In this document: positions 32,432 through 51,249 of the stretch, one piece after another
Layout: each line of letters starts with the position of its first letter
Position numbering within the stretch: the first letter of the stretch is position 1
Assembly (NCBI GenBank): GCA_903833215.1
Contig: CAILEM010000106.1
Location: forward strand, 1 to 64,000
Direction of reading: 5' to 3'
DNA length: 64,000 nt
DNA from: an uncultured Armatimonadota bacterium
GTDB taxonomy: Bacteria > Armatimonadota > Fimbriimonadia > Fimbriimonadales > Fimbriimonadaceae
Notes under the pieces: model-generated
What the model was told of the DNA's origin: nothing
The model's input: only the letters and a program-made list of their open reading frames with translations
Database searches by the model: none
Position numbers and translations under genes: made by a program

Positions 32432-32688
32432 GGGTTCGTCGATATAAATTTGGCTTCAAATCCCGCGGTTTGTTGTAGAAATACTGCTTTAGTGATCAAC
32501 ACTTGTACTGCAAACTTCTTTGTGGACAAGGGGATACTTCTGTTTGCCCATGTTTGGGCATCGTGAGATATGTGAATTGATCGGCAAGATAGACATCTGC
32601 AAACCTCAGGTTGGCGGGAGGAAGCCTGCGGTAACAATTGTGTTCGCGACAACTGAAATTGTCGCTTGGACCCCGTGAGACACTCCAA

Positions 32689-33621
32689 ATGAGTTTGTTG
32701 TCATCCAGTTTTCTAGCCGCCGAGCGCCTCCTTCAGACACCTGGTCGCTCGGATCTCGACTTCTATCGCTCTGTTCATGACGCGGCTTCGATGCTATTCC
32801 CCGTCGATGCGTTTTATATCTGTCTTGTTCAACGAGAACCCGATTGGCTTCATTTTGTTTATAACTGTGAGGGCAAGGTGTTTGCTAAACCGGAGCCATT
32901 TCCATTTGGTAAGGGACCCACAAGTTGGGTCGCGAGGAATGGAGAGCCGTACGTCATTACGCAACCGGATCACGCTAAAGGTCTTGAATTCGTCCAGTTC
33001 GCTGACGCTGAGACCGTAACAGGCTCGGCTGTGCACTGGCCGATGTGGATTCACGTGTCCAAGTCACGGCTACCCGATGGGGTGATCTCCTTCCAAGCAT
33101 ACACCTTTGGTGCTTACAAGGAAGACGAGATTGCTGCGATTGAATGGCTCGCCTTGAGGACATCAGATTTGATGGCCCGAAGAGCCGACGTAACTCTACA
33201 GAATAGTAAGGCCCAGGTGATAGAACGTTCCGTCGTGCAAAACCGTGCGATTGCTGACGTGAAGAAGTTCGTATCGATTCTGGACGAACTTAGCGTCTAC
33301 GCAAGTTCGCCAAGAGACCTGTTGCATCAAATTCAGAATTTCCAAGTCGAATTGACGAGGTGGGCACCAAACGCTGATAAAGAGACAGACCCGTTACTCA
33401 AGGAGCTTTCAGAACTAAGCGACCGTGAACTTGAGGTCATTGGTTCAGTTGTCCTCGGCTTAAGCAATAAAGAGGTCGGTAAAGTACTCGGTCTGTCTGA
33501 ACATACAGTCAAAAGGCATCTGGACAATATCTACCACCAAACGTCAATCAAGAGCCGATCTGATATCGCAAAGGCCTCTCAAATGATCCGAATGGCGCGA
33601 CTCACCCGATCGGGTCATTGA
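32689..33621 (+). CDS. GAF-like / LuxR-type HTH transcriptional regulator
   Basis: 310 residues from ATG 32689; a TTG at 32638 is a possible longer start. The N-terminal 160 residues look like a GAF sensor (FYRSVHDAASMLFPVDAFY; GPTSWVARNGEPYVI). A linker helix leads to a C-terminal LuxR HTH: LSDRELEVIGSVVLGLSNKE, then GLSEHTVKRHLDNIY. Such proteins switch transcription in response to a bound small ligand or dimer partner. As the only regulator in the island it may control the genes downstream. No receiver domain is present. Confidence 0.8.
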   Translation: MSLLSSSFLAAERLLQTPGRSDLDFYRSVHDAASMLFPVDAFYICLVQREPDWLHFVYNCEGKVFAKPEPFPFGKGPTSWVARNGEPYVITQPDHAKGLEFVQFADAETVTGSAVHWPMWIHVSKSRLPDGVISFQAYTFGAYKEDEIAAIEWLALRTSDLMARRADVTLQNSKAQVIERSVVQNRAIADVKKFVSILDELSVYASSPRDLLHQIQNFQVELTRWAPNADKETDPLLKELSELSDRELEVIGSVVLGLSNKEVGKVLGLSEHTVKRHLDNIYHQTSIKSRSDIAKASQMIRMARLTRSGH

Positions 33622-33939
33622 GATTCACCTGGCCCGGTTATTGTGAACTGCGAGGAGATGAAATATAGTATCTCTATGGCCTTCCGAGACGACGTTGTTT
33701 CTGTGGAAGTTGACCAAAACGTTATTTAGGCCAATGAAGAAGTGCGTTCTCCGCGGTCTAGTTGAGATTCCAACTCGGCACTCCGGCAGCGATGTCCATG
33801 TAGTCGTTTGTGATACCTACCTAGACCTTGACCCGTTGACGGTTTGGTTTTTATTGGCATACCGATTTGAATCTCGTCCGAAATCTCCCTGTCCCTCTCT
33901 AATAGCGTGATGATGTTGAGAGGACTGAATTGATCAGAC
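33622..33939. other. Intergenic region before the 961-residue protein
   Basis: About 320 bp. A 71-codon frame (33695-33910) is present but has no ribosome site and protein-like features are weak, so I left it out. The region probably carries the promoter of the exported repeat protein. No clear -35/-10 pair or terminator was picked out. Confidence 0.4.
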
Positions 33940-36825
33940 ATGCGTATTTTCTCTTCAATAGTTTTTAGCCTTTCCCTAGCTGGTGTTGCTTTTTACTTGG
34001 CTGAGCCGAGTATCTCCGCTACTTCGACTTGGCGGAACCAGGCTCCTGCGAATTGGTTCCCTACGAGCGCTCCAACTCCCGGATTCATCAATGCGTCTTA
34101 CACAAACAAGGTCATTGAACGGGCAAAGAAGAAGAGGCATGCGCACCATCAAGGCAATACCGATGTGTCCACCAGAGGGCACAAGCCGGGTCCTGGTGGT
34201 AAGTCGCCGGGAAAGCGACTGAAAATTACCGAAAAAGTTTTCCCGAAGTTTGTCGATTACTCTGGTAAGGCCATTAATGGCGTTCATGTTCACATCGAAT
34301 TGATGGATGCCAAAGGCTTGAAATATCAGCAGGTAGATAGAGTCACGGGTAGCTCAGGCGTTGGTACCGTAAGTGTTCAGGTCAGCAAGTTTCCATCTGT
34401 CGTTACTTTAACGGTGCCCGAGGGTGACCGATGGGAGGTCACGGATCAGAGCAAAGGGATATTTACGATAACTGGGGCTGAAGGCTCAAAGACTTCGAAG
34501 ACCACACGTGAGCTTCGTCCAAATCCGATATCGTTGGCACTTCAAATAGCGACGGTCAACATTGATGGTCCACCTCACGCAGAAGTTCACCTCGGTAACG
34601 ACAAAGAAGTGCGTTGTGACGATGGAGGCAGAGCAGCAATTGAGGTGCCGATGGATGCATTTGAAGAGCAAGTATCCATTAACGTTAGAAGGACCACAGA
34701 GGGGGGGACGTTCCTCGGTAGCTTCAACGTCGGCAAACCTGACAGCAACGGCGAGACCAAGGTGGATTGCAGGAACTTACCGTTGGTTGCCCTGACAAAC
34801 GTTCGTGTGAGCTGTTTTGGTCCAGATGAGTTGACAACGTACGGTTTTCCTACGGAAAAGCTCGTTCTCGAAAAGCTTGGTAAGCCATCGGATTTTCGCC
34901 GAAAAAGGTTGAGTACCACCTCGCGAAATTCAAAGTGGCTCGAATATCCCGACCAAGGACTTGCTTTCAAAGTGCGGTCCATTAATGGCCCCAGTGACAG
35001 GCCGATCAGTGTTGTTGAGCGTATCCGGATTACTTCTTCCGCTGGTGGAGGTATTGGCGCTCTCCAAGTTTCTGATGGTGTCGATAAGTTGTCGTCTCTA
35101 TTCGGTGATGAGGGCGCGACTCTTCCGGACTCAAATGGCGGAAAGGCGCATTCGTTCCTCGACGAAGGAGTTATTATTCATGAGAATCGGAATCAGCAAA
35201 TTGATTGGATCGATCTGAATAGACCACTCCCACACCTTTCGGAAGGCGCAGACCTTGGCATCCCGAATGTGCGCGCCAAGGTGTTTATCGAGCCTGTCGA
35301 TGGTGACTGGGAGGATTATAAGAGTGCATCGACAGACTTGATTGGGTTCCTGGAATCCTGTCCTGGAATGACGTTTGTGCAAGATCAGGCTCAGGCCGAC
35401 ACTGTGATTCAGCTGAGCCTTCAGGATTTCAACGCAAAGAAGGACCGATCATTTGCAGGGTTCTACTCCAAATATCAAATCACAGAAAGCCTGAACTGCC
35501 AGATAACGGAGGTTGGAGAGGCGAGCGGTTCTCCGTTCAGTAGAACGTACGTTGGAAACGGTATCGCGGACTTTGAACGAGAAGTTGATCAGTCGAGATA
35601 TCTCGTTAGCCGTTCAGATTTTTCCCGCTCAACAGGATTGCTGATGCGACGCGGGGCGGAGCGCGCGAAGCGGATCGCGATGCGGCAAATAGCTTCCCAG
35701 ATCGTTGAAGAACTGACTCGCCGTGCGACATTTACGGCTCGACTAACTTCCATAGAAGAGGAAGGTGGAAGTCTTGAGATTAACGCGGGCAAAAACCAGG
35801 GACTTATCATCGGGTCTGAACTGGAGATTTACAACTCTGGCGTTCCAGCGTTCAAAAACCAAGTTGGAACCTACTCTCAAAGCGTCACCTTAGCTAGGGT
35901 GACGGAGCTTACTGAGAACACTGCAAAGTGCCAGGCCTATGTAATTGTTAGCTCAGTTGGTAAAGACGGAAAGGTTAATGTTGAAGAGCTGCCAATCCCA
36001 ACTACAGCACGGAGAGGCGTTATTCTGCGTCAGCTGGAGCAAGTTCTTGACCCTTCAACGAGAATGGCGACTGCCAAACCGGTCTATCGAATTGTTGATT
36101 TGTCTGAAGACCAATGGGACGAGTCCGGGGACAAGGGGTATGTCCCAACCGTGCAACCCACCGTCCACTTCCTGACTTGGCCATTGAGACGTCCAGCGGA
36201 AGAGCTCAAGAGGCATGAGGTCTTTACACGTTGGTATGTCGAGCGGGTTGATCGCGTGCGAGCGGGGAGGGGAGACCACCACCCCAACGGACCTGTTGGC
36301 CACAACCCCAACGGACCTGTTGGCCACAACCCCAACGGACCTGTTGGCCACAACCCCAACGGACCTGTTGGCCACAACCCCAACGGACCTGTTGGCCACA
36401 ACCCCAACGGACCTGTCGGCCACAATCCCAATGGGCTCAGCGGTCGCAATCCCAACGGGCACGGCGAATACGACCCCAGTGGACCTGACGGTCGCAACCT
36501 CAATGGGCCCGGCGGCTACCACCCCAATAGGCCTCGCGGCTACGATCCCAACGGACCTGTCGGCCACAAACCCACTGGGCTCGGCGGCTACAACCCTAAT
36601 GGGCCAAGCGGTCGTACCCTCATCGGACGTGGCAGTGGTGTTCCTTCTAGGCCAATAGATAACGGGTCATCTGTGCACGGGTCGGTCAGGTCCAGAGGAA
36701 ATACGCAAACTGGAATTGGCCAAGGACGACAAGATCCGCAGCGACGTCAGGAAAGCACGCGCCAGCAGGATGCTCCACGGCGGCAAGAACCGCAGAAGAC
36801 GAATACTCGACGGAGAGGTGGCTAG
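33940..36825 (+). CDS. Large exported protein with CsgG/FlgT-like region and NPNGPVGH repeats
   Basis: 961 residues. A signal peptide (IFSSIVFSLSLAGVAFYLA) leads to a beta domain near residues 100-170 (FVDYSGKAINGVHVHIELMD) and further beta regions. Around residues 450-590 is a CsgG-like pattern: LIGFLESCPGMTFVQDQAQ, ADTVIQLSLQDF and a helix of A-rich arginine residues ending IASQIVEEL. Next comes a small beta domain (LEINAGKNQGLIIGSELEIY) like the C-terminal domain of FlgT-type proteins and like that in the convergent protein at 45049-47004. The C-terminus holds fifteen 8-residue repeats, then a Gln/Arg-rich end. I infer an envelope or surface component. No known family covers the whole protein. 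Confidence 0.6.
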   Translation: MRIFSSIVFSLSLAGVAFYLAEPSISATSTWRNQAPANWFPTSAPTPGFINASYTNKVIERAKKKRHAHHQGNTDVSTRGHKPGPGGKSPGKRLKITEKVFPKFVDYSGKAINGVHVHIELMDAKGLKYQQVDRVTGSSGVGTVSVQVSKFPSVVTLTVPEGDRWEVTDQSKGIFTITGAEGSKTSKTTRELRPNPISLALQIATVNIDGPPHAEVHLGNDKEVRCDDGGRAAIEVPMDAFEEQVSINVRRTTEGGTFLGSFNVGKPDSNGETKVDCRNLPLVALTNVRVSCFGPDELTTYGFPTEKLVLEKLGKPSDFRRKRLSTTSRNSKWLEYPDQGLAFKVRSINGPSDRPISVVERIRITSSAGGGIGALQVSDGVDKLSSLFGDEGATLPDSNGGKAHSFLDEGVIIHENRNQQIDWIDLNRPLPHLSEGADLGIPNVRAKVFIEPVDGDWEDYKSASTDLIGFLESCPGMTFVQDQAQADTVIQLSLQDFNAKKDRSFAGFYSKYQITESLNCQITEVGEASGSPFSRTYVGNGIADFEREVDQSRYLVSRSDFSRSTGLLMRRGAERAKRIAMRQIASQIVEELTRRATFTARLTSIEEEGGSLEINAGKNQGLIIGSELEIYNSGVPAFKNQVGTYSQSVTLARVTELTENTAKCQAYVIVSSVGKDGKVNVEELPIPTTARRGVILRQLEQVLDPSTRMATAKPVYRIVDLSEDQWDESGDKGYVPTVQPTVHFLTWPLRRPAEELKRHEVFTRWYVERVDRVRAGRGDHHPNGPVGHNPNGPVGHNPNGPVGHNPNGPVGHNPNGPVGHNPNGPVGHNPNGLSGRNPNGHGEYDPSGPDGRNLNGPGGYHPNRPRGYDPNGPVGHKPTGLGGYNPNGPSGRTLIGRGSGVPSRPIDNGSSVHGSVRSRGNTQTGIGQGRQDPQRRQESTRQQDAPRRQEPQKTNTRRRGG
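36277..36636 (+). repeat. Fifteen tandem 24-bp repeats coding 8-residue units
   Basis: The first six units (36277-36420) are almost identical at DNA level and encode the consensus NPNGPVGH. Nine degenerate units follow, each still exactly 24 bp, for example NPNGLSGR, DPSGPDGR and KPTGLGGY. The identical block suggests recent slippage expansion on top of an older array. The units lie in frame in the exported protein and are not CRISPR-like, because there are no spacers. Confidence 0.92.
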
Positions 36826-36981
36826 CTCAGTGATGTACAACTTCGGTCCGATGAGTGAGACGTGTTCGCTTTTGTTGGGTCCGAAAGATTTTCTGACGGA
36901 AGAATTGCCCTAAATAGCGGTTAGGTTCGTGAATTTGGTGCGATGGATTTTTGAGATAGGTTAGGGAATAGGGGGAGTTTA

Positions 36982-38529
36982 TTGTCATACGCAGTTGGAA
37001 TCGATTTAGGCACAACAAATTCAGTCATTTCGCTTTGGAGAAAAGGATCGCTAGAGACAATCGAGATTGATGGACGCGATGCGATGCCATCGGTTGTTTC
37101 ATTTCGGCCAGATGGCAAAGTTCTCATTGGAAAAGCTGCGAAGGGGATACTCCTTTCTGATCCAGACAACACACTAGGATCGACGAAGCGCGACATTGGA
37201 ACAAATCGGACTTACACTGCTGGTGGGAAAAAACTAGGCCCCACTGACGTTGCCGCCATGATCCTGGAGCGACTAGTGAACATTGCTAGTCAGACCACTG
37301 GTGTTCCCATTAAGGAAGCCGTCATTACGGTTCCGGCGTATTTCAATGAAGAGCAAAAGGCTCAGACTAGACGAGCAGGAGAAAGAGCGGGCCTGAAGGT
37401 TCTGCGGCTCCTGCCTGAGCCAACAGCGGCGGCCATTGCCTATGGATTGGACAAAGATCGTGATCAGACCATCATGGTCTACGATCTTGGCGGCGGAACT
37501 TTCGATGTATCTATCCTATCGATAAAACAGAATAACTTCACTGTTCGGGCTGTCGGTGGAGACAGCCATCTCGGTGGAGATGACTTTGATTTGGCGATCG
37601 TTTCCTGGATTTGCGAGAAAATTAAGGCCAAGTCTGGCAAAGATATTCTGCGAGATCAGTCGGCACAGGCGAGGTTAGCTCTCCAGAAACTAAAGGAGGA
37701 GTGTGAGAAAGCCAAGGTCGAACTCTCTACGGCCGAAGTGACGGAAATCTTAGTGACTGACGTCATGGGACAGACTGTAGATGAACAGCTCACCCTCGCC
37801 GAATACAACAGATTGATTGGTCCTCTCCTCCAGCGCACCGTTGTATGTGTTAGGAAGACGCTGAAAGATGCCGGATTGACCTCAGAGGACATCAATCGAG
37901 TGATTCTTGTAGGTGGTTCAACGAAGAACCGCGCTGTAAGGGAGTTGGTTGCGAAGGAGATCAAGCCACCCTACACCGCAGATAAGGTGGATCTTGCAGT
38001 GTCGCACGGCGCAGCAATTGTGGCGGCAAACTCGGCCCTTCCTGCAGTCGGAAACACGGATCAGAAGGGTCTGCCCCCGATCGAATTTAAAGATGTGACA
38101 GCCCACACTCTTTCTGTTGACATGTATAACGCAGCTGGGGATTTGGTTTGTATCCCCGTGATTCAACGGCAGACACCCTTTCCATGTCGTGGCACGGCTC
38201 TTGGAGCAACGCGTCGACCTTATCAAGAGGTTGTCGCATTTGAGGTTTACCGGGGAGAGGAACTTGAGCCTTCAAACAACACAAAGCTGGGTGAGCTTGC
38301 GCTGCCGCTGGCGACACCAGCGGCAGTTGAGATTTATGTCGCGTGTTTGTTCAGTCTAGACCACGACGGACTGCTGAACTTTACGGCCGCAGAATTTCCT
38401 CCCGACCCAGACAATATCCTCTTGTTCGAATCCATGGATGCATCAGGGAGCCTCGATCTTTCCAAGGTTGACGCACTCGTGCGAGCCGGGATCGTTAAAA
38501 CCAAGACTGTGACAATTCGAACCACGTGA
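36982..38529 (+). CDS. Lid-less Hsp70 (DnaK-like) protein 1
   Basis: 515 residues, about 120 shorter than DnaK, from TTG 36982 with GGGAG upstream. The nucleotide-binding domain is intact: GIDLGTTNS (phosphate 1), KRDIGTN with the ATPase lysine, PEPTAAAIAYG, DLGGGTFDVS (phosphate 2) and ILVGGSTK (adenosine). Residues from about 385 form a short substrate-binding beta domain (TAHTLSVDMYNAAGDLV); the helical lid is missing. Hsp70s bind exposed hydrophobic segments under ATP control. It is the first of three paralogues in this island and is followed by a 256-bp gap before the next. No J-protein gene is nearby. Confidence 0.88.
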   Translation: MSYAVGIDLGTTNSVISLWRKGSLETIEIDGRDAMPSVVSFRPDGKVLIGKAAKGILLSDPDNTLGSTKRDIGTNRTYTAGGKKLGPTDVAAMILERLVNIASQTTGVPIKEAVITVPAYFNEEQKAQTRRAGERAGLKVLRLLPEPTAAAIAYGLDKDRDQTIMVYDLGGGTFDVSILSIKQNNFTVRAVGGDSHLGGDDFDLAIVSWICEKIKAKSGKDILRDQSAQARLALQKLKEECEKAKVELSTAEVTEILVTDVMGQTVDEQLTLAEYNRLIGPLLQRTVVCVRKTLKDAGLTSEDINRVILVGGSTKNRAVRELVAKEIKPPYTADKVDLAVSHGAAIVAANSALPAVGNTDQKGLPPIEFKDVTAHTLSVDMYNAAGDLVCIPVIQRQTPFPCRGTALGATRRPYQEVVAFEVYRGEELEPSNNTKLGELALPLATPAAVEIYVACLFSLDHDGLLNFTAAEFPPDPDNILLFESMDASGSLDLSKVDALVRAGIVKTKTVTIRTT

Positions 38530-38539
38530 TGGCCACGAC

Positions 38540-38668
38540 ATGGGTAGCCGTGGCAACACGAAGTCCAAACGTAAATTGGAAGAACACATCAAGAGTGCTT
38601 TGGCTCGTTCCATCCCAGACAAAGAAAACTGCTCACAGGGGCTTCTTTGGTTTGCGTTTGCGCCCTGA
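38540..38668 (+). CDS. Possible 42-residue protein between two Hsp70 genes
   Basis: The gap between Hsp70-1 and Hsp70-2 contains a short frame, ATG 38540 to TGA 38668: a basic start (MGSRGNTKSKRKLEEHIKSA) and a hydrophobic, aromatic end (LLWFAFAP). The ribosome site is weak. Composition is plausible for a small helix that binds a partner, but chance cannot be excluded. No family recognised. Confidence 0.25.
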   Translation: MGSRGNTKSKRKLEEHIKSALARSIPDKENCSQGLLWFAFAP

Positions 38669-38785
38669 TGAACCGCTACTGTTATGTCGTGTGGCACGGT
38701 TAGTGCGGCACATTTGCCGACTTGATCGCGCGTAACTCTCTCAAAAATAGGCACAGCCATTGACCTAAGATGGCAAGGAATCGCT

Positions 38786-40342
38786 ATGGGAATTGAAATT
38801 GATAAGAGCTCTTATGTATTTGGAATTGACCTTGGGACCACGAATTCGTCTATAGCGGTATTCGCGCAGGGAAAGAGTCATGTGATACCGCTTGATGGTA
38901 GGAAATCGATGCCATCGGTGTTGCGAATCAAAGAGGGGGGAGAGATCATTGTAGGACAGGCTGCGAAGTCTAGCATCTACTCCTACCCTGATGACACGGT
39001 GTCGTCTGTGAAACGCATGTTGGGAACGGGTTGGAAAAAGCAATTCTCGGCGTTACCTGAGATCTCTTTCTCAGCCGTCGATATCTCGGGTGAGGTTCTG
39101 AGTGCAATATGTGCCAAAGCTCAAACGCAAGAGGAATTTGACATTCAAGGCACCCCGCATAGGGTTGTCATCTGCATTCCTGCCAATTTCACAGATATTC
39201 AAAAGAAGGAAACGAGAGAGGCTGCGGAACGGGCGAACCTCCAAGTGATTGACCTGATCGAAGAGCCGGTAGCGGCCGCCATAGCCTACGCTGTGGACAA
39301 AGAAGTCAAGCAGACAATTCTCGTTTACGATCTGGGGGGTGGGACCTTTGACGTAACGATCATGCGGGTAGAAGCTGAGCGCAGAGATGATGGAACGACC
39401 GGGCACCTGCGGGTGCTTTCCAAGGTAGGCATACAGCAGCTGGGCGGAGACGATTTTGACATGGCCCTTATGAAGCTGGTTGTTAAGGATGTTAACGCCA
39501 AGCTTGGATTTGATCTCCTTGACGAAACTGCCGAGTGTGATTTGACACCGAAATCGATGCGTGAGGCGAGAGAGAAATTAAAAGCGGCATGTGAACAAGG
39601 CAAAATCGACTTAACCACATCCCCAAGTACCGAAATCAGTATTTCCAATTTTATTGTTGATGGTAGCGGGATTGTCCACAATATCGAACTAGAGGTTACT
39701 CGTCAAGAGTTTGAAGCGGCGATCGAGCCTCTCGTTCTCAAATCGCGAGCCGCGGTGGATCAAGCCACCAAGGAGGCAGCACTCAGCCTGGAGGACGTAA
39801 ACAGAATCATTATGGTTGGTGGCTCGACTAAGGTTCCATGCGTGAGCAAAATGCTGGAGGAGATGTACGGCAAAAAGCCGTTCATGGATGCTGACGTCGA
39901 TACGATTGTCGCACGCGGGGCTGCAATCTACGGCTCATGGAAAACGGCTGCTTCGGAAGACACTTGTCAAGGTCTTGCACTCCACAATATCGCCTCTCAT
40001 CATCTTGGTATCGAGGTCGCCGGAGGCAAGGTGAGTTGGATCATTGAAAAGGGATCTGAGATTCCAGCCGATGAGCCACTGAGAATTTCTCGAACCTACA
40101 CAACACAGGAAGACGGGCAGGAGTCCATTCGAATTACAGTTTATCAAGGTGTCGAAGCGACGACTTACGCAACGGATGAGGGAACAGTTTGCATTGGTGA
40201 GTTTTATTTGAGCGGCATTCCCCCGAAACCAGCGTCGTCAGAACGCATTGAAGTTACCTTCGAGTTGAATCAACACAACATCTTAACGGTATCAGGTGTT
40301 TCATCTACTTCAAGCGAAGGGCTCGAGATCAAGAGGAGTTGA
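38786..40342 (+). CDS. Lid-less Hsp70 (DnaK-like) protein 2
   Basis: 518 residues with AAGGA six bases before ATG. ATPase motifs are all present: GIDLGTTNSSIA, VKRMLGTG with the lysine, EEPVAAAIAYA, YDLGGGTFDVT and IMVGGSTKVP. The substrate domain (ASHHLGIEVAGGKVSWIIE) is short and there is no lid. It differs clearly from Hsp70-1, so the copies are not a recent duplication. One base separates its stop region from the start of the GrpE-like gene, indicating coupled expression with its likely exchange factor. Confidence 0.88.
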   Translation: MGIEIDKSSYVFGIDLGTTNSSIAVFAQGKSHVIPLDGRKSMPSVLRIKEGGEIIVGQAAKSSIYSYPDDTVSSVKRMLGTGWKKQFSALPEISFSAVDISGEVLSAICAKAQTQEEFDIQGTPHRVVICIPANFTDIQKKETREAAERANLQVIDLIEEPVAAAIAYAVDKEVKQTILVYDLGGGTFDVTIMRVEAERRDDGTTGHLRVLSKVGIQQLGGDDFDMALMKLVVKDVNAKLGFDLLDETAECDLTPKSMREAREKLKAACEQGKIDLTTSPSTEISISNFIVDGSGIVHNIELEVTRQEFEAAIEPLVLKSRAAVDQATKEAALSLEDVNRIIMVGGSTKVPCVSKMLEEMYGKKPFMDADVDTIVARGAAIYGSWKTAASEDTCQGLALHNIASHHLGIEVAGGKVSWIIEKGSEIPADEPLRISRTYTTQEDGQESIRITVYQGVEATTYATDEGTVCIGEFYLSGIPPKPASSERIEVTFELNQHNILTVSGVSSTSSEGLEIKRS

Positions 40343-40343
40343 A

Positions 40344-41789
40344 ATGGGCACAAGTGAATTGTCACAAGCCGAGCTGAATCTTGTTTCAGATGCTGAGCAT
40401 CTGATCACGACTCTTCGTGTTTTGGCCGATGCTCACCATCAGGCTAAAAAGTACGCCTATAGGCTCTTGAATACGAAGACTTCACGCGCAGAAGCGGCCC
40501 AGCGCAAGATGATTCAAAACCTTAGCAATGGGACAGCAGCTAAGGAGATGAATGAGCTGGCAGCGTGGCTAGAAAAGCGGTATCAGATCTCAGAGCAAGA
40601 CAGCAATCAGATTCAGCCGCGACAGGAGAAGAACTCTATTGAATTTGAAGTGCACTCCGTACCGGAGCCTCAGGTGAACGATGTTGGTGGCGATATCAGA
40701 GACCGGCAGGATCAGGAATTAACAACGAATGGGCCAGGAACTGCCAGCGGTGGAATTTCCCCCGAGCAGTCGGTGATTACCGGAGGTGAGGAAGGTTGTG
40801 AATCGGATGACGTCGTGCAGTCCGGTGGAGAACCCAAGCCTGTCGTTGAGAACGGACCAGAACGGAACTTTGTTGAGGAAGGTGAAGATGTCCAGCCAAA
40901 CCAATCCGACGCTGTCGCTATCGATATGTTTATCAAAGAGATAGTGGCTCTGGACGAACTCGAATCAATTAAAGACCGAGCGGAGGCTCAGGTATGCATC
41001 GAAGCTTGTGAGAAAGCGAGGCTCGAGTCTGAGCAGTTTTTTGATTCGCTCAGGTCAGTGTCTGTCACGGTTGCTGAAAGACTTGATCAGCATCCTTCGC
41101 TTCCAGATGATATCGAAAGCGAAGTGCGGGCTTTGATAGAGAGCCGGCATCAAAGCTTGATGCTTATATCAAAAATGCTTAAGCGTTTGGAAAGCAGAAT
41201 CCCTCTGGTCGAGGTTCCCGAACAGTGGGAACTACCATCTCTTGGGTGTTCTGAAGAATCGCTCGCAGCTATGGTAATCCAACAAGCCACCCTCGTTCAG
41301 GTTCAAAATCGGATTAAAGAGCATGTCCGATTGCATTCTCTCGAGCGCTATTCATGTGTGTCCACACCAAGAGACTTGGCACGGTCGGTGTCAAAGCAGC
41401 TCATTGATTTCATTGCGCGGCACCTGCTACCAATCCTTGATAGCCTTGATGATGGCCGAACCTACACGCAACCCCTCCTTGATCCTAGTAATGGGAAGAA
41501 TGCGGCGGCGTTCGCGGAGACGATTAGGGATGCGTATGGTCAAGCAAGGCTAGACCTGCTGACGGTGATTGCTGCTGTCGGGGTTGACGTGATACCAGTG
41601 GTCATTGGCTCTCCAATCGATTATGAGTGTCAAGAGCCATTCGATTCGGAGCCCCATCCATCAATGCCAGAAGAAACCGTTTTATCCGTTTCACGAAACG
41701 GATATCAGAAGCGAGTGAGTGACAAGATAACGAGGAATATTCGGATGGCGCAAGTCGTGATTGTGAGAAATCCTAAGGGGAACGGTTAG
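40344..41789 (+). CDS. Long GrpE-like protein with coiled-coil regions
   Basis: 481 residues from ATG 40344 with AGAGGAG at 40332-40338. Residues 1-90 are helical; about 95-200 are an acidic low-complexity linker; 200-400 are long helices that could form a coiled coil. The last 65 residues follow the GrpE beta-wing order: IPVVIGSPIDYECQEP, PEETVLSVSRNGYQ and IRMAQVVIV, matching GrpE positions that end MVKVSK-like. GrpE proteins of about 200 residues exchange ADP for ATP on DnaK. This one is more than twice that length and lies between two Hsp70 genes. I infer a dedicated exchange factor with extra binding arms. Confidence 0.6.
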   Translation: MGTSELSQAELNLVSDAEHLITTLRVLADAHHQAKKYAYRLLNTKTSRAEAAQRKMIQNLSNGTAAKEMNELAAWLEKRYQISEQDSNQIQPRQEKNSIEFEVHSVPEPQVNDVGGDIRDRQDQELTTNGPGTASGGISPEQSVITGGEEGCESDDVVQSGGEPKPVVENGPERNFVEEGEDVQPNQSDAVAIDMFIKEIVALDELESIKDRAEAQVCIEACEKARLESEQFFDSLRSVSVTVAERLDQHPSLPDDIESEVRALIESRHQSLMLISKMLKRLESRIPLVEVPEQWELPSLGCSEESLAAMVIQQATLVQVQNRIKEHVRLHSLERYSCVSTPRDLARSVSKQLIDFIARHLLPILDSLDDGRTYTQPLLDPSNGKNAAAFAETIRDAYGQARLDLLTVIAAVGVDVIPVVIGSPIDYECQEPFDSEPHPSMPEETVLSVSRNGYQKRVSDKITRNIRMAQVVIVRNPKGNG

Positions 41790-43279
41790 TGGATTACAGT
41801 AAGAACCTTGTGCTCGGGATGGATCTCGGGACCACATTTAGTAGTGTTGGGCAATGGGATGGGCGCGGAGTTGTGATCCTTGAAGACATCACTGGAAAGG
41901 AAGCGATCCAGTCAGTGGTCTATTATGAGGAGCCCCAAGATGCCTTTACGGTCGGTGAAACAGCCTATAACAAGACCCTAAAGAATCCGGAATACGGCGT
42001 TATCGGCGTCAAGCGAATGATGGATGATGGGGAGCAACCCATTCGTCTTGGAACGAAGACCCTGACTCCAGTAGAGGTGTCCTCCGAGATCCTGAAAAGG
42101 TGGAAGAGCGATGCGCTCTCCAAGGTTCCCGGATCTAAGGTATCCAGCAGTGTCGTAACCGTCCCGTACTACTTCAAGGTCCACCAATGCGAAAATACAC
42201 GCAAAGCGGCAGAGCTGTCGAATATCAATTGTAAGGCGATTCTGCAAGAACCCATCGCTGCTTCCATCGGCTACGCATGGTACCTATCCCAAAAACACGG
42301 CAACCAAGATTATTCGGAGACCATCCTTGTATTTGATTTGGGTGGGGGCACCTTCGATTTGACTCTCTTCCAGCTACACCTTACTGCCACGAAGATCCGA
42401 TTTGAGGTACTCGCAACTGGTGGAGATGATCGGTTGGGAGGAATGGACTTTGATGAGCGGATTGTCGAATTGTTTCTCAAGAGGAGTGGTAGTACGCTCG
42501 ACGGACTAGAACCGAAGGCTTATCGTATGGCGCGCCAGAAGCTTTTGGAAAGGGCTAACTCCACCAAGATTACTTTGACAACGTCGGTAACGGACACCGT
42601 AACTATCTCGGACGTTGTTCCTGGCAAAGGGGCCGATTTTGATGTTAGTCAGGCCGACTTAGAGGAGATACTCGGCGATTACATCAAGCGTATCGAGGAT
42701 ATGATCAGCCATATTTGGAGTGATGCGGGCATACAGCCTCACGAGGTTCCCAAGAAGCTTGATCGGGTTATTAAGGTCGGAGGATCAAGCAAACTCGCCT
42801 GTATTCGCAAGATGTTGGAGCGGGTGATTGGCAAAGACAAGATATATAACGACATTAAAGATGTCACTGCGGTTGCACAAGGGGCGGCGATTTATGCCGC
42901 ATATCTCGACGATCCAGAGGTATTAGGTAAGGAAGTCGAAATTGTTACAAGAACTTGCCATTCCCTTGGTGTCGAAACAACTGGTGGAAAGTTCCATGTT
43001 TTGGTGCCTGCTAATCGACCTGCCCCTTGTGAGATCATGCAGATTTTCCGAACTGACGCGGATAACGTTACGAATCTAGACATTAATCTCTTTCAAGGCT
43101 CCTCAAAGCAGGTGGCAGATAACTCATTGGTGGGAACGATTAAGGTTGACGGTTTGAAACCCCGACCCAAAGGTGAAACCAAGGTCAAGATCACACTGAA
43201 AGTTAGCCCTCAACAGACTCTCTCAGTGCTTGTAGACATCGACGGTCAAAGAAGTGTGGGCAACTTCAAGATTGCTTAG
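41789..43279 (+). CDS. Lid-less Hsp70 (DnaK-like) protein 3
   Basis: 496 residues from GTG 41789, overlapping the preceding stop by one base (TAGTG) with AAGGGG upstream. Motifs: GMDLGTTFSSVG, VKRMMDDG, QEPIAASIGYA, FDLGGGTFDLT and KVGGSSKLACIR. It is the most divergent of the three: QSVVYYEE replaces the usual PSVVxF region and the N-lobe start is shorter. Substrate domain short (CHSLGVETTGGKFHVLVP), no lid. Nine bases separate its stop from the pseudokinase gene. Confidence 0.87.
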   Translation: MDYSKNLVLGMDLGTTFSSVGQWDGRGVVILEDITGKEAIQSVVYYEEPQDAFTVGETAYNKTLKNPEYGVIGVKRMMDDGEQPIRLGTKTLTPVEVSSEILKRWKSDALSKVPGSKVSSSVVTVPYYFKVHQCENTRKAAELSNINCKAILQEPIAASIGYAWYLSQKHGNQDYSETILVFDLGGGTFDLTLFQLHLTATKIRFEVLATGGDDRLGGMDFDERIVELFLKRSGSTLDGLEPKAYRMARQKLLERANSTKITLTTSVTDTVTISDVVPGKGADFDVSQADLEEILGDYIKRIEDMISHIWSDAGIQPHEVPKKLDRVIKVGGSSKLACIRKMLERVIGKDKIYNDIKDVTAVAQGAAIYAAYLDDPEVLGKEVEIVTRTCHSLGVETTGGKFHVLVPANRPAPCEIMQIFRTDADNVTNLDINLFQGSSKQVADNSLVGTIKVDGLKPRPKGETKVKITLKVSPQQTLSVLVDIDGQRSVGNFKIA

Positions 43280-43288
43280 CAAAGAATA

Positions 43289-44998
43289 ATGAATTACACG
43301 ATAGGCCAGCAAATTGCTCGTTCGTATACAGTCGTTTCTGTCGGATCTGGAGATGCTGTCTTTGATCGTCTCGTCGCTGTGGACGGTAGCAATATCCAGT
43401 ATTCCATTTGGAGTCTGAAGGGGGAGTTTTCTGAGAGATGTGCTGAACCGCTTCTTGACTATGTCGAGAGATTGATGTCGATTAGTCAACGGCACCTCGC
43501 CGTTCCAAAGCAGGTTTGTTCAGAACCGGGGATTCCGGTGATGATCTGCTATCGCCTCGATGAGGTGACGAAGCTCCGAGACTTGATCGAATCCGCGACG
43601 TCGGTCGGTGAAATACTGGAAATTTGGGAACAGGTTTTCGAGAGCCTGTTTGAGTTGCACAAGAACGGTTTCTGCCACGGATATCTGTCCGAAGATTCAT
43701 TCGTCTCGATCAACAATTCGCTGCAACTCCGGGATTTCGGCTTTGCACCGCTTATTGATGTGGGCCTGGATCAGGCTCGGGATATCTGCAGAGACCACTT
43801 GGCACCAGAACTCACTTCTTCTGGCGTGCTCACTGTACAGAGCGATATCTACGCACTTGGTAAGTTGGTTGGTCGTATTCATCCTGAAGTCCTCACAACG
43901 AATTGGTACAGCGTGATGACGAATCTGAATCTAGAAATCCGTCCCAAAAGAGCTCGGGGAGCGCTTGATGGATTGGAACAGTGTTTAAACGGTGGACCGA
44001 AAATTCTTGACTCAGTCGCTGGCGGACTTGAACCAGTCGGAGATCCTATCGAACCAAACAGGGCTCTGCCTAAGCCCATTTATCGAGTTATGGCGACTGC
44101 CGACCCGGCAGGTGCGGGCTCGATTAGCGGAGCAGGTGAGTATGTTGAAGGAGCAAAAGTTGTCCTTACAGCGTCAGCAAATCGAGGATTCACCTTCTCG
44201 GGATGGTCCGGCGATATCACCTGTCCTACAGCGAGATTAGAAATGAAAGTCGTCAAGGACACGGCCGTCCAGGCCACGTTCTTGGCCGAAGCTCCAGCGG
44301 GAAGAGATCGAAGGCGATCGAAGACACCAGCGGCAGGGCTGGCAGGTCTTGTTGTTGGAGTGGGCGCGGGGCTATTCGTGGTCATTGGTGTTGTTGGGTT
44401 TCTTGTCGCAAGCAAGAAGCCGTCATCAGCGGTGCCGAATTCTCCGGCAGTCGAGAGCCAAGACGCAAATTCGGGTGCACTTCCTGGAGGTCGCCAGTCC
44501 GCCACCGACCGGACTTCCGTGGCCTCGAATGCAACTGAACTCCTTAAGAAGATCTCCGTATTGAAAGCTAGTGCCGACCAAACCGCATCAAAGGCTTTTG
44601 CCTTTTGCGCCAGCTATAATGGAACCTACATCGAGAAGCATTCAGCGGACCCAGCAATAAAACAGAATGCGGTGAATTTGGCGGCCGAGACCGAAGTAAC
44701 AGTGAATCAAGGTATCGCGATTTATTCAAACAACCCTGGCTTGAGTAAAGACGATTATTTACCAGCCTTGGACATTGACCTTGCGCTCGTGCTAGCAATC
44801 CAGCAGAAGCCCTTTACAGATCAATTACACAAAGCCGAGTCAGAGTTCCGCCTAATCCATGATGCCTCACATAAAATTGATGCGGAAACGACTGGGCGAT
44901 GGCTGGAAGCAGTAGCTCGTGGAGAGAGAGTCATTTGGGCGGACTCGGTGACTCCGTCTTCGGGATCACCAGCCAATGGAACACCGAGCCGAGCTTAA
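43289..44998 (+). CDS. Membrane-anchored pseudokinase with InlB-type repeat
   Basis: 569 residues. The C-lobe of a Ser/Thr-kinase fold is visible: HGYLSEDS (130-137) sits where HRDLKPEN belongs, so the catalytic Asp and Lys are lost; DFG (149-151), HLAPE and SDIYALG are kept. The glycine loop and VAIK lysine are not evident, so it is probably inactive. Residues 264-332 (ATADPAGAGSISGAGEYVEG) form a divergent InlB B-repeat domain, usually extracellular. A membrane helix spans about 350-374 after RDRRRSK, which by the positive-inside rule leaves both kinase and repeat in the cytoplasm; the last 190 residues would be outside. It closes the Hsp70 operon, so it likely senses or recruits those chaperones at the membrane. 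Confidence 0.65.
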   Translation: MNYTIGQQIARSYTVVSVGSGDAVFDRLVAVDGSNIQYSIWSLKGEFSERCAEPLLDYVERLMSISQRHLAVPKQVCSEPGIPVMICYRLDEVTKLRDLIESATSVGEILEIWEQVFESLFELHKNGFCHGYLSEDSFVSINNSLQLRDFGFAPLIDVGLDQARDICRDHLAPELTSSGVLTVQSDIYALGKLVGRIHPEVLTTNWYSVMTNLNLEIRPKRARGALDGLEQCLNGGPKILDSVAGGLEPVGDPIEPNRALPKPIYRVMATADPAGAGSISGAGEYVEGAKVVLTASANRGFTFSGWSGDITCPTARLEMKVVKDTAVQATFLAEAPAGRDRRRSKTPAAGLAGLVVGVGAGLFVVIGVVGFLVASKKPSSAVPNSPAVESQDANSGALPGGRQSATDRTSVASNATELLKKISVLKASADQTASKAFAFCASYNGTYIEKHSADPAIKQNAVNLAAETEVTVNQGIAIYSNNPGLSKDDYLPALDIDLALVLAIQQKPFTDQLHKAESEFRLIHDASHKIDAETTGRWLEAVARGERVIWADSVTPSSGSPANGTPSRA

Positions 44999-45048
44999 GT
45001 CAGAAGTTGCCCCCTGAGTACCTGATGGCCCAGAGGGCAACTGCTGGT

Positions 45049-47004
45049 TTAGTGAGACCAGTGCACAACCGAGCCTTTCTGGACTCGCGTGAAGCGGGAT
45101 TTGTCCAAGTCTGAGATAGGGCGACACAGGCTTCGCTTTCCAACCTCGGTTACTCTCAGGTTGACATTCCCTTGGTCTGTCTCGATCACCACCTTGTCCC
45201 CAACAATGACGCCTTCAACTCGGCCGATACTGATTTCCGCCTGAATCGCACTGACGGATGTTACGGTCATTGCAGGGACAGTTACGTTTGCATTTTGCGT
45301 AGGGGGCACCTCCTCCTTGGGAGGTAGCTGCCCGTATGGATTACCATCGAGCCATGCCTCCTGAAGAAGTTGGCTCAACGCATTGGCTGCTCCATCCCTT
45401 CCAGCTTCTGAGTAGAACGAATCGGGACATTCATTCGTTGATTCGGGGACTCGCAGTTCACTTGGTTGGTTCTGTGCGCCATGGACAACAACGGTTTCGG
45501 TTTTGAATTCCCGAGTTTCCGATTTGGTACCTACAAGCTCTTTCTCCCACACGACTTTTCCCAAGTCATCCTGTAGGTCAAAGAGCTTTAGGCTAATTCG
45601 AACCGAAGCTGTGGTTGTACTCTGGATTTGCTGTTCGAACCGCACTGCGACTCGATTTTGCCATTCATCATGATCAGCATCCCATTTGGCGCAATCTTCA
45701 CGCCATTGCCGGACTTGCTCCGCGCGTTGAGCGTCTGTATCCCCGCGCCGTCTATCTGGAACATCAGGTCTTGGGCCCCCTTGCCATTCGCTTGGAACGT
45801 CAGATACACGACGCTGTTCACCTCGGTAAGCGGTACCGCCGTGGGTATCTAGGAGACTCAAGCACCAGACATACCGTAATCCCGCCCTGTCATGTAGTGC
45901 GCGTACTGCCTCCGTGGACCCAGCTAGTTGATCTTCACCGACTTCTCGGGTAAGGCCCGATCCACCCGGAATTGACTCAGCAACGTCGATCTTTTTGCTT
46001 CTCATGTCCGAGGCGACTTCACCTCGTATGACATCAGCTATCTCCTTCGGCAAACTATTTCTCTGAACTACCAGTGTCGATCGTCCGACCTTTCGAAGAT
46101 CGACTACCTTTTCTTTGTAGCCAACTGTCGGAATCCTTTCAGCATCGGGGAATCGAACGCAGAGCCTAGAGAGGAGTGTCGCGTTCGGAGCAGATAGGAC
46201 AACTACTTTCCTGTTATCTGGTAGGGTTTTCTGAACCGCGACAACAAGGTTATCTTCGCCCCCTAATGATTTGGCAAGTTCACTGATTGATTCGGGTAAA
46301 CCGCTTGGGGGGGCAGAGCGATCGATTAGGTAGGCCAAGTTGGTTTCTGGATTTGAATCTTGTTCGGGTGGGTTGTCGCCTAATGCGGAAGTCGAGATTG
46401 CATTCCATGCCCCTGCAATCGTTCCCCAATTTCCATGTTTGAATCCGTCTGACAGGTGAATTGCCACCTTGTTCGTTTTATATTGCTTATCCAGCGAAAG
46501 GAGGTCTGCCTTTCTTTCCCCATACTTAAGCAGTTCTGTAATCAATCGGGCTTCGCGTTCTTTGTCAGGCGCGATCGCTACGATACTGAACGAAAGCCCT
46601 TGTTTCACCGGCCTTACTACCTGCGCGTGAATTCTGCTGACAGTGCTGGTGAGATCTGAGGCATCTACGCGAAGTGCCAGTGCCAACTCATCTGACAGCG
46701 CAGGCTTTTCTTCTCGAGTTAGGAGCACGATGAATGTTTCCTTCCTGAGTTTTGGTTGGGCCTTTAGCAGTTCAGTGGCTTGGTCTAGTGTCAAAACCGA
46801 TAATTTCTTTTTCTTTGACTCTGTCCAGTCTTTGTGATCTTGAACCTGCTGAAGAAGTAGGTCCCCGAGTCGTTTTGTTTCTGGCCCGCTCACAACGACA
46901 TATAAACTCGAAGGATCCTTGGCCATCTGGCGGATGAAGGTCGTCTGCGCGTTGATCGTAGACGCAATAGATATCGCAAAAAGTGCAGCAGCAATTCTCT
47001 TCAT
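45049..47004 (-). CDS. Exported protein with FlgT/CsgG-like C-terminal domain
   Basis: 651 residues with a signal peptide (MKRIAAALFAISIASTINAQ). Residues 20-200 are alternating helices and strands; about 300-360 contain KVVDLRKVGRSTLVVQ; residues near 345-500 resemble CsgG-type folds, with LRYVWCLSLLDTHGG and a charged tandem of D, R and Q. The last 80 residues (TSVSAIQAEISIGRVEGVIV, then GDKVVIE and LRVTEVGKRSLC) match a small beta domain in the 961-residue protein, like FlgT C-terminal domains. It is convergent with the pseudokinase gene and may share the envelope side of the system. No enzyme motif. Confidence 0.55.
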   Translation of the reverse strand: MKRIAAALFAISIASTINAQTTFIRQMAKDPSSLYVVVSGPETKRLGDLLLQQVQDHKDWTESKKKKLSVLTLDQATELLKAQPKLRKETFIVLLTREEKPALSDELALALRVDASDLTSTVSRIHAQVVRPVKQGLSFSIVAIAPDKEREARLITELLKYGERKADLLSLDKQYKTNKVAIHLSDGFKHGNWGTIAGAWNAISTSALGDNPPEQDSNPETNLAYLIDRSAPPSGLPESISELAKSLGGEDNLVVAVQKTLPDNRKVVVLSAPNATLLSRLCVRFPDAERIPTVGYKEKVVDLRKVGRSTLVVQRNSLPKEIADVIRGEVASDMRSKKIDVAESIPGGSGLTREVGEDQLAGSTEAVRALHDRAGLRYVWCLSLLDTHGGTAYRGEQRRVSDVPSEWQGGPRPDVPDRRRGDTDAQRAEQVRQWREDCAKWDADHDEWQNRVAVRFEQQIQSTTTASVRISLKLFDLQDDLGKVVWEKELVGTKSETREFKTETVVVHGAQNQPSELRVPESTNECPDSFYSEAGRDGAANALSQLLQEAWLDGNPYGQLPPKEEVPPTQNANVTVPAMTVTSVSAIQAEISIGRVEGVIVGDKVVIETDQGNVNLRVTEVGKRSLCRPISDLDKSRFTRVQKGSVVHWSH

Positions 47005-47315
47005 GACGATTACAAGGCTACCATGATATTGCCGAAGTGAAAGTTGGATATTTCAGAAAATCTCGTTCGCAATGGACTAAATTAGTGAATCGCTGCCTTT
47101 GGTGACACTTAGGATTTATTTGGGCCTATGCTGCTACCTGATTATGGTAATTATACCTGGCCACTTCGGGTCACGCTTCAATAACCAATTCGGGTTATTG
47201 ACGAGGATCTACTCTAAGCATAAACTGACGACTCTGGGTATTTGACCTTGATGTGGCCCATTAAGAACTTGCAGTTCCGACAGAACTGGTCACGTACCCT
47301 CTCCTAGATGGCGTT
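47005..47315. other. Divergent intergenic region
   Basis: 311 bp between the starts of two divergent genes (exported protein on the left, 13-helix protein on the right). It must carry both promoters. It is visibly AT-rich near 47030-47110 and contains no gene, tRNA or strong inverted repeat that I could see. Confidence 0.4.
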
Positions 47316-50231
47316 ATGGAAACTTCAGTTAATCCCGGTCTACCCTATCGCAAATTATTCCCGGCAGCCATGATGCTTGGTTCATGGTTTTTGCCGTGGC
47401 TCGCTTATTCGCTCCCCTTTTTCGGCCAGAGTGGGAGGTTAGCAGGGAGTTACTGGGACCTAATTTCATTCATGTTGGGAAATCCAGGACCAACGCTACA
47501 AGCACTCCAAGCGTACCCAGGCGTCTTGGCTGTGCTTGTTCCACTCGCCGCGACAGTGCTTGCCTTGCTTGCCATGTCGCCTGGCGGCGCGCTGTTCAAG
47601 TGTATCGGTGGATTGCTAGGGGCAATCTCTGGCATAGGATCCTATTTATATCTCGCTTCGATTCCGATAGGGTCGATGGGGCCTCAGCCTACATCTTTAC
47701 TTGGATCGGGCTTTTTCCTGTTCGTCGTAGGATGTGTGTGGTGTGTCATTGACTGTTTCTCTGCGCTCCGGATTCGTCCGGGAATTCCTACTAGCGGCGA
47801 AAAGCAAGAATCGAATTCTCTGCCTTCGACCGGTGATTCAACCGGTACGCAACAGTTGCAGCAATTAGCAAAAGTCCCATGGCCATGGATGCTTTTTGGG
47901 TTGTCAGTTGTTTCAGCCCTGTTCCTGGCCGCCACACATCGAACTGGCGGCCTGGAAAAGATCGGCATCTTGATGGGCTGCATATTTGGAGTCATTGCCG
48001 CCGCCACCATGATTCGGTTGGCAGTTAATAACTGCATCCTTGTGCAATCAAATTCCGACGCCATTCGATATGATGATCGTCGGGTGGACTACTTAGCTGT
48101 GGGAATATGTGCTGCAGCGTGGAGTCTTTGGTGTGCTTGGCTTGGCCCAACCCAAGGCACCTCCACTTGGTCAGACGTCCCAGGCTTTTTGGTTTCTGCA
48201 ATGGCTTCCATTGCTACCGTTGGGATACTTCGGTTACCCGAGTACGAACGCTATCGTCACAGTTCGTTTCGCACTCACAAGAGCCTTACTGTTTTGTATT
48301 CGACTCGAGTGTTAGGCGTAGTCTTCGTCAGCGGTTTCGGACTCCAGTTTATCGGCTCTAAGTTCCAATGGGCGACGCTGCACACCATCTTTAACAGCTA
48401 CTCATTCTTGGCTTCGTTAGTTGGACTCATTATATCAATTGGGTTAATGCACATATTTCGGAAGGAAGGCAGAGAAGATGTGAATCAGGTAAGGGATTTC
48501 CTGCCTGCCTATGGTGTGAGCGTATTGGTGTGGGAGCTTATCCTTGCCCGAAGCTTGGCTGGGCAATCTGCGGAAATTATTGTTGTAAACGAGCTTGGAT
48601 CCATTCTTGGTGCGCTGGGGATGACCTACCTTTGGATTTCACTTGGAGAGGTGTCCGGAATTTATACTCGGCTTCCAGATCGCGTCAATATTCCAATTGT
48701 GAATACAAGAGTGTTAGGTGGGGCAGTAGCACTCTCATTGTTTCTCGTAACGAGTTGGTGCACTTACTCCGTTTCCAGGAAGCGGGCTGATGAAGCCGAT
48801 GCGGCTAAGGCGCTCATCGCAGCTAAAAGCGATACAGATTTTGTGAAAGCCGTATCGTTAATAGGTTCGGATAAGGCCAATTTCCACAAAGAACTCAATG
48901 CCTTTTACAAATCGCACAACCTCGCGCAGAGTGAGGTGATCCCAGCGACTTCCAAGACGTCCGATAATACAGACAGATGGACATATCCTGGAGCGATCGC
49001 AGACGTTTCAAAAAACCATCGGTGGCAGGAGAGTGGCTACACCGTGACGGCTGACATTGAGCAGGATGGCACGATCTCCCGCATCGAATGTGGATCAAAT
49101 GCGGGCGACTCAACTCCAACGTATGCTTTTGCGACTGTGGCTAAATTGACAGGTAAGGAAAATCCTACTGCTGGAGTCGACTACTTTGTATTTTTGAACC
49201 CATTTGCACAATCCACCCAGGCGGCAACTGGCAACTCGGTTGGCGCTCACTTCTTGGTTAAGTTTCATGCGAAAAATGGTTCAACGTGCATTGCGGAATG
49301 CGTTGGTCAGCCATTTTGTACACGGGTTGACAGTTTCGATCCAGTAAAAGGAAGGTCGGTCACCAAGTTTACAACTCAACAAGTAAACATGGAGGACGCA
49401 AGTGTGGAGTGGATTAGAGCACTTCGCGACCAGCACAGTTTCATGAATCCTCAGTATCAGGCGATCTTTGGTTCCTGGACCGCAAAACCTCTGGTTGATA
49501 AGTGGACTGATCTCAACGGGCTTCAAACTGCATTGAGAGCAGGAGATTCGGAGGCGATCCGGATTGCTGGTGAGTGCGGGAAATCCTATTACTCGGATTC
49601 ACCCACGATACTGAATAGCATGGCTTGGGCCATTGCGGATGGTGCCTCAGGGGCCAAGGCGGAAGACTTGGAAATTGCAAGGCAGTTATCAGAGCAGTCT
49701 CTCAAGGTATTAGCGGTAACTGATCAGACAAGGCCCGACTACCTAGATACGCTTGCAACGGTTTACAATCGGCAGCAAAGGCGAAGTGAAGCGATTACTA
49801 CTGAAGAAGAAGCTGTAAACCTTAACAAGTCCCTCCGGCCTCAAAACTTGTCGAGCCTCCAAACGTTTTCCGAAAAAGTTGCTAAGTTTGGTGGTCCAGC
49901 GAACTATGGGATGCCCCAGCCAGTTCCTGTTCAGGCCCCAACAGGCGCCCTGCCAGTCCTGACGCCATCGATAGCTGTAGATAAGCTTGTGCAAGATTCT
50001 GATCTAGTGGGGAAAACCGCCTTGGATCTGAGCCTAATGCGAAACGAGATCTATGCGCGCCATGGCCTCATATTCCAAAAGCCTTCTTTGAGGAGTCATT
50101 TCATGTCTCAACCTTGGTACCACGGAGACTCAACTGATCAAGTTGCAGTTCATGGGCGCTTGTCTGAGGTTGAGCGACAAAACGTCATCCGCATTCTGGA
50201 TTACCAAAAGAGTCATGGACTCAGGGAGTAG
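47316..50231 (+). CDS. 13-helix membrane protein with YARHG C-terminus
   Basis: 971 residues. About thirteen hydrophobic helices occupy residues 10-490, for example LFPAAMMLGSWFLPWLAYSL and AVALSLFLVTSWCTYSV. An extracytoplasmic or cytoplasmic region then holds helical repeats (YLDTLATVYNRQQRRSEAI, TPR-like). The last 70 residues carry LMRNEIYARHGLIF and PWYHGDS, which mark a YARHG domain, a short extracellular module of bacterial surface proteins. It ends the island and is followed by ordinary metabolism genes. The membrane topology and role are unknown. Confidence 0.65.
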   Translation: METSVNPGLPYRKLFPAAMMLGSWFLPWLAYSLPFFGQSGRLAGSYWDLISFMLGNPGPTLQALQAYPGVLAVLVPLAATVLALLAMSPGGALFKCIGGLLGAISGIGSYLYLASIPIGSMGPQPTSLLGSGFFLFVVGCVWCVIDCFSALRIRPGIPTSGEKQESNSLPSTGDSTGTQQLQQLAKVPWPWMLFGLSVVSALFLAATHRTGGLEKIGILMGCIFGVIAAATMIRLAVNNCILVQSNSDAIRYDDRRVDYLAVGICAAAWSLWCAWLGPTQGTSTWSDVPGFLVSAMASIATVGILRLPEYERYRHSSFRTHKSLTVLYSTRVLGVVFVSGFGLQFIGSKFQWATLHTIFNSYSFLASLVGLIISIGLMHIFRKEGREDVNQVRDFLPAYGVSVLVWELILARSLAGQSAEIIVVNELGSILGALGMTYLWISLGEVSGIYTRLPDRVNIPIVNTRVLGGAVALSLFLVTSWCTYSVSRKRADEADAAKALIAAKSDTDFVKAVSLIGSDKANFHKELNAFYKSHNLAQSEVIPATSKTSDNTDRWTYPGAIADVSKNHRWQESGYTVTADIEQDGTISRIECGSNAGDSTPTYAFATVAKLTGKENPTAGVDYFVFLNPFAQSTQAATGNSVGAHFLVKFHAKNGSTCIAECVGQPFCTRVDSFDPVKGRSVTKFTTQQVNMEDASVEWIRALRDQHSFMNPQYQAIFGSWTAKPLVDKWTDLNGLQTALRAGDSEAIRIAGECGKSYYSDSPTILNSMAWAIADGASGAKAEDLEIARQLSEQSLKVLAVTDQTRPDYLDTLATVYNRQQRRSEAITTEEEAVNLNKSLRPQNLSSLQTFSEKVAKFGGPANYGMPQPVPVQAPTGALPVLTPSIAVDKLVQDSDLVGKTALDLSLMRNEIYARHGLIFQKPSLRSHFMSQPWYHGDSTDQVAVHGRLSEVERQNVIRILDYQKSHGLRE

Positions 50232-50318
50232 AAAGCCGCTGTCGACAGCATGGTCCACTATGGGGTCATCACTCAATTGTCTAACGTCTGATTTTACGGC
50301 AAAATCACTCGCTGTCGA

Positions 50319-51227: not shown

Positions 51228-51249
51228 CGTCTGTAACCATACACCCGCC

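Follow-up and report, generated by a model that had tools for sequence, protein, structure and literature searches.

Gene content of the locus

The DNA analysed, a stretch of 64 kb (the window) from an uncultured bacterium of the Armatimonadota, carries five plus-strand genes that encode three Hsp70 proteins, a GrpE-like protein and a pseudokinase. All five ORFs are intact. The Hsp70-2 and GrpE-like genes are separated by 1 bp, the GrpE-like gene and Hsp70-3 overlap by one base, and Hsp70-3 and the kinase gene are 9 bp apart. An earlier note on this DNA had described the last four genes as packed with gaps of 0-9 bp; the packing was confirmed, with a true range of -1 to +9 bp. It is confined to these four genes, the gap from Hsp70-1 to Hsp70-2 being 256 bp.

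The cluster lies in a block of 18.7 kb (31652-50318), between a glycosyltransferase gene (30650-31651) and a ribokinase-like gene (50319-51287). Orthologues of both flanking genes are only 22 bp apart in congener G004. The ribokinase gene adjoins PhoU in G019 and G007; in G012 the two are about 2.5 kb apart. The block is therefore an insertion or a lineage-specific gain in the present genome, as the flanking genes adjoin in congeners, and it is a genomic island in that it is absent from the syntenic site in G004, G019 and G007. An assembly chimera is an unlikely source, since the island is inside the contig and both flanks are syntenic. Its GC content is slightly lower (about 0.50 versus 0.53). 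No tRNA was found in the 64-kb window, no flanking repeats around the island and no integrase among the island proteins scanned.

The first large gene of the island encodes a LuxR-family (GerE) regulator (32638-33621, plus strand) with a weak GAF match. It is followed by p1 (33940-36825, plus strand; 961 aa), putatively secreted, with a weak FlgT_C-like part and C-terminal GHNPNGPV repeats, by the Hsp70 cluster, by p7 (45049-47004, minus strand; 651 aa), putatively secreted, and by p8 (47316-50231, plus strand; 971 aa), a multi-TM protein at the end of the island with a TPR-like part and a C-terminal YARHG domain. The association of p7 and p8 with the cluster is unproven, and they may be unrelated cargo. 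The repeats at the end of p1 are encoded by a 24-bp tandem repeat at 36211-36666 of the window, across which the minus strand is likewise open.

Three lid-less Hsp70 proteins

Hsp70-1 (36982-38529; 515 aa, TTG start), Hsp70-2 (38786-40342; 518 aa) and Hsp70-3 (41789-43279; 496 aa), the most divergent of the three, matched the Pfam HSP70 family with E-values of 4.8e-112, 2.5e-95 and 9.4e-82, respectively. The matches spanned the nucleotide-binding domain (NBD) and the beta substrate domain only. E. coli DnaK, HscA and HscC served as references in the residue alignment. All three have the phosphate, adenosine and catalytic residues of the NBD, together with the beta substrate-binding domain, that place a protein in the Hsp70 superfamily; D8, T11, T12, K70, E171, D194, G198, T199 and G341 (E. 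coli DnaK numbering) are kept in each. Past DnaK position 507, where the lid starts, Hsp70-1 has 24 residues, Hsp70-2 three and Hsp70-3 none, compared with 131 in DnaK. The description of three differing, lid-less Hsp70s with their ATPase motifs kept thus held. None of the three is a canonical DnaK, as each is without the helical lid and their scores against the NCBIfam DnaK equivalogs (277-368 bits) are far under the cut-offs of 648 and 823. A lid hidden by a frameshift 3′ of Hsp70-1 was considered and rejected: the 256-bp gap, read by eye, held only a short ORF and no lid-like frame.

In each protein the hydrophobic VLLL motif between the domains is degraded. At R167, N170, T173 and D393, which we take to be the J-domain contact positions as established for DnaK, Hsp70-1 has R, P, T and D, whereas Hsp70-2 has D, E, V and N, and Hsp70-3 has A, Q, I and T. 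Erosion of the J-binding and linker residues is strongest in Hsp70-2 and Hsp70-3. With R167, T173 and D393 kept in Hsp70-1 and all four positions changed in the other two, a J-protein in trans might still suit Hsp70-1, and would be less likely to suit Hsp70-2 and Hsp70-3. The loop corresponding to the exposed loop 276-302 of DnaK, a candidate marker of GrpE dependence, is 22, 28 and 23 residues long in the three proteins.

GrpE-like protein and pseudokinase

The gene between Hsp70-2 and Hsp70-3 (40344-41789, plus strand, ATG at 40344) encodes a protein of 481 aa with a predicted helical N-terminus, an acidic linker and a GrpE domain at about residues 357-479. As had been proposed, this protein is GrpE-like. 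Its C-terminus matched GrpE (PF01025; E-value 2.4e-8; 34.3 bits, cut-off 25.8), profile-profile comparison with GrpE (hhalign) gave a probability of 96.5 (E 1e-9), and the C-terminal helical bundle and beta domain of GrpE are both present. The rest of the protein appears mostly helical with the acidic linker, which at an AlphaFold pLDDT of 39 is a hint only. AlphaFold models made without an alignment, for this protein (pLDDT 39) and for the pseudokinase (pLDDT 35), were unusable.

The last gene (43289-44998, plus strand) encodes a kinase domain (about residues 1-200), an InlB-like repeat (269-333), a single TM helix downstream of it (355-373) and a helical tail. The Pkinase score (30.4 bits) was just under the Pfam cut-off, and that for PK_Tyr_Ser-Thr (29 bits) was over it. 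HGY...S replaces HRD...N, so that neither the catalytic Asp nor the Asn after it is present; DFG is kept. A kinase fold match with the catalytic Asp lost, and one TM helix, bear out the proposed membrane pseudokinase. The stated lack of a J-protein was also upheld, as neither an HPD motif nor a DnaJ domain was found in the five cluster proteins or in the flanking p1, p7 and p8.

Ancestry and distribution

Hsp70-1, -2 and -3 are 28-34% identical to one another and 32-39% identical to the DnaK of the same genome, which encodes a canonical DnaK (contig C36) and GrpE (C35) elsewhere. In the tree all three were on long branches, Hsp70-1 and Hsp70-2 being joined without support. A single origin of the three gave p-AU 0.184, so that monophyly was neither shown nor rejected. 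The low mutual identity and the long branches rule out recent tandem duplication; as judged from these sequences, the three Hsp70s are old lineages.

The 291 genomes of the phylum contained no orthologue of Hsp70-1 (best matches ordinary DnaKs at 38-46%), of Hsp70-3 (about 35%) or of the GrpE-like protein, whose best match reached 33% across a single GrpE stretch (E 1.8e-5). When 84,980 GTDB species genomes were pattern-scanned, neither the GrpE-like protein nor Hsp70-2 had a close relative there; these scans reach close relatives only, so more distant kin may exist outside the phylum. Conserved co-occurrence of the whole set, which the earlier note had proposed as a check, was therefore not seen, there being no orthologous cluster in the 291 genomes or the GTDB scans. 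Neither the GrpE-like protein nor Hsp70-3 had relatives among viral contigs. The annotated plasmid matches that were inspected were ordinary DnaKs, and PADLOC gave only weak kinase and Hsp70 cross-hits. Literature searches turned up neither a bacterial Hsp70 without a lid nor a system of Hsp70, pseudokinase and GrpE. The cluster is thus a genuine, packed set of intact genes with no counterpart in the data searched.

Lid-less Hsp70s of another kind occur in the same phylum. At loci L040-L044 (family f13), Hsp70s of 492-497 aa likewise end after the beta substrate domain. Unlike the present three, they branch with ordinary DnaKs and adjoin a DnaJ gene, and one that was measured is 56% identical to the DnaK of the present genome. 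They were ruled out as orthologues on these grounds, and lid loss happened separately in f13.

Related modules in relatives

A divergent Hsp70 gene next to a GrpE-like gene recurred within the order, in G010, G039 and G043, among 61 relatives examined. The G010:C4 module encodes a GrpE with a TM helix, an Hsp70 and a DnaJ-TPR protein; it is compact (L010:9089-13098), has a TM helix in the DnaJ/TPR protein as well, and is probably membrane-bound. In G039:C71, GrpE and Hsp70 are accompanied by a 977-aa protein with zinc-ribbon and FNIII-like repeats (by eye), and in G043:C95 GrpE and an Hsp70-like gene are beside ClpB. The present genome (C40; L013:7425-12198) and G013:C6 (L014:7448-12135) each contain a triad of a TM protein (654/634 aa), a small GrpE-beta-like protein and a 796/792-aa Hsp70. 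The small protein resembles the beta domain of GrpE only, and weakly (E 0.15; profile-profile probability 12). In these large Hsp70s, an additional segment separates the NBD from the beta substrate domain.

Among 40 relatives, p1 had one significant homologue, in G012:C61, with partial similarity (26.6% over 222 columns). The gene clusters with those for zinc-ribbon proteins, a Tubulin_2 protein and an 831-aa Hsp70/actin-like NBD protein, the last assigned from its phosphate motifs, with a Pfam HSP70 match of E 0.011 only. Coiled-coil and vWA-like (by eye) proteins are also encoded there (L077 = G012:C61:1-16000; L114:1-2920), and a weak TIR-like gene is nearby. In gene content the G012 cluster is similar to the conflict systems with tubulin and Hsp70 that Kaur et al. 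(2020, PMC7159879) described. Tubulin_2 was present in 12 of the 61 relatives and absent from the present genome.

Comparison with known systems

Like the DnaK-DnaJ-GrpE system, the cluster combines the Hsp70 NBD and beta substrate domain with a GrpE-type exchange factor. Unlike it, the cluster has no lid and no J-protein, its linker and J-contact residues are eroded, and its GrpE-like protein has about 350 extra residues. E. coli HscC (Hsc62, 556 aa), with DjlC, is likewise a divergent Hsp70 shorter than DnaK. However, HscC keeps 82 residues past position 507 and an adjoining gene for its J partner, and it is only 28-33% identical to the cluster Hsp70s.

The nearest theme described is found in some GAP1-N2 GTPase-centric conflict systems, in which Hsp70 and GrpE are joined by FNIII proteins that carry DnaJ/TPR fusions and, in some cases, by a further, truncated Hsp70 (Kaur et al. 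2020, eLife 9:e52696, PMC7159879). Another theme of these systems carries a kinase, sometimes with TM helices (PMC7159879). Accessory Hsp70 and GrpE genes side by side, and membrane association, are common to the Hsp70/GrpE theme and the present cluster. The present cluster differs in having no GAP1, GTPase or DnaJ-FNIII protein, and in having three Hsp70s, each with its beta substrate domain kept; the kinase of the other theme is active, whereas that here is a pseudokinase. No GAP1-N2 or GTPase domain was found in the five cluster proteins, in p1, p7 and p8 or in the LuxR gene, nor an FNIII protein fused to DnaJ or TPR among the cluster and flanking proteins. The cluster was not assigned to the described conflict systems, since their defining GAP1, GTPase and J/FNIII components were sought and not found. 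The smaller Hsp70 and GrpE-like modules of the order do match the theme of Kaur et al. (2020, PMC7159879). The claim that no described system has such a set was therefore too strong, accessory Hsp70 and GrpE neighbourhoods being known (PMC7159879), and the cluster is probably a rare variant of these accessory gene modules.

Possible roles of the cluster

The reading we prefer, tentatively, is that of an accessory Hsp70/GrpE module on a lineage-specific island, akin to Hsp70/GrpE-bearing NTPase conflict or envelope modules. The anatomy of the cluster, the empty site in congeners and the recurrent Hsp70/GrpE-like pairing in the order count for it, as does the p1 homologue in G012:C61, where the component set is like those of Kaur et al. 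(2020, PMC7159879). Against it, the p1 similarity is partial and rests on one case, and there is no orthologous cluster with which to compare co-inheritance. GAP1, GTPase, tubulin, vWA and any recognised effector are also all absent from the island. The idea of a dedicated rather than general machine fared well in part: the Hsp70s are neither recent duplicates nor housekeeping DnaKs, the genes are tightly grouped on an island that congeners do not have, and the pairing of a divergent Hsp70 with a GrpE-like protein recurs. That the proteins act jointly, as one machine, and to what purpose, we infer.

In such a module, the GrpE-like protein would act as nucleotide exchange factor for at least one of the three Hsp70s. 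The missing lid, and the degraded linkers and J-contact sites of Hsp70-2 and Hsp70-3, suggest that the Hsp70s may serve as fast-binding ATP-dependent scaffolds or switches and not as refolding chaperones. The pseudokinase may anchor or sense at the membrane, and may take the place of the J/FNIII protein of related modules. The output could be a response to stress or to an invader, or envelope assembly; our guess is a conflict-type switch. The cluster is also a new arrangement among accessory Hsp70/GrpE modules, which have been little studied and are tied to biological conflict (Kaur et al. 2020, PMC7159879).

The lid-less Hsp70s might instead be dedicated to assembling or holding the envelope and secreted proteins p1, p7 and p8, keeping these clients at the membrane by way of the pseudokinase, with the GrpE-like protein releasing them for export; this seems rather doubtful. 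p1 and p7 appear to be secreted, p8 is a membrane protein like the pseudokinase, and all are on one island. However, p7 is on the opposite strand, and its homologue in congener G019, at 52% identity, lacks an Hsp70 neighbour. To our knowledge, there is no precedent for three Hsp70s serving envelope or secreted clients.

It is unlikely that the Hsp70s are diverged general chaperone paralogues for stress or a large proteome, clustered by accident and served by ordinary DnaJ and GrpE in trans. The genome is large (6.2 Mb), and dnaK duplication correlates with proteome complexity (PMC11019930). R167, T173 and D393 are kept in Hsp70-1, and a single origin by old duplication was not rejected (p-AU above). 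The GrpE-like gene within the packed run, the lid loss and the linker decay argue otherwise, and the mutual identity and island location misfit ordinary duplication.

The J-protein, the allosteric linker and the lid are thought necessary for Hsp70 function. A compact set of lid-less Hsp70s, their linkers and J sites partly lost, with an exchange factor of their own would allow a test of which parts of the Hsp70 cycle can be spared. A J-independent machine, in which the three non-equivalent lid-less Hsp70s form a hetero-assembly round a single multi-domain GrpE-like hub and the pseudokinase holds it at the membrane and gives the activating input that usually comes from a J-domain, is distinctly unlikely. 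A mosaic or decaying island of genes without joint function is more improbable again: the set was not conserved anywhere searched, but every ORF is intact, the active-site residues are kept in all three Hsp70s and the last four genes are packed end to end.
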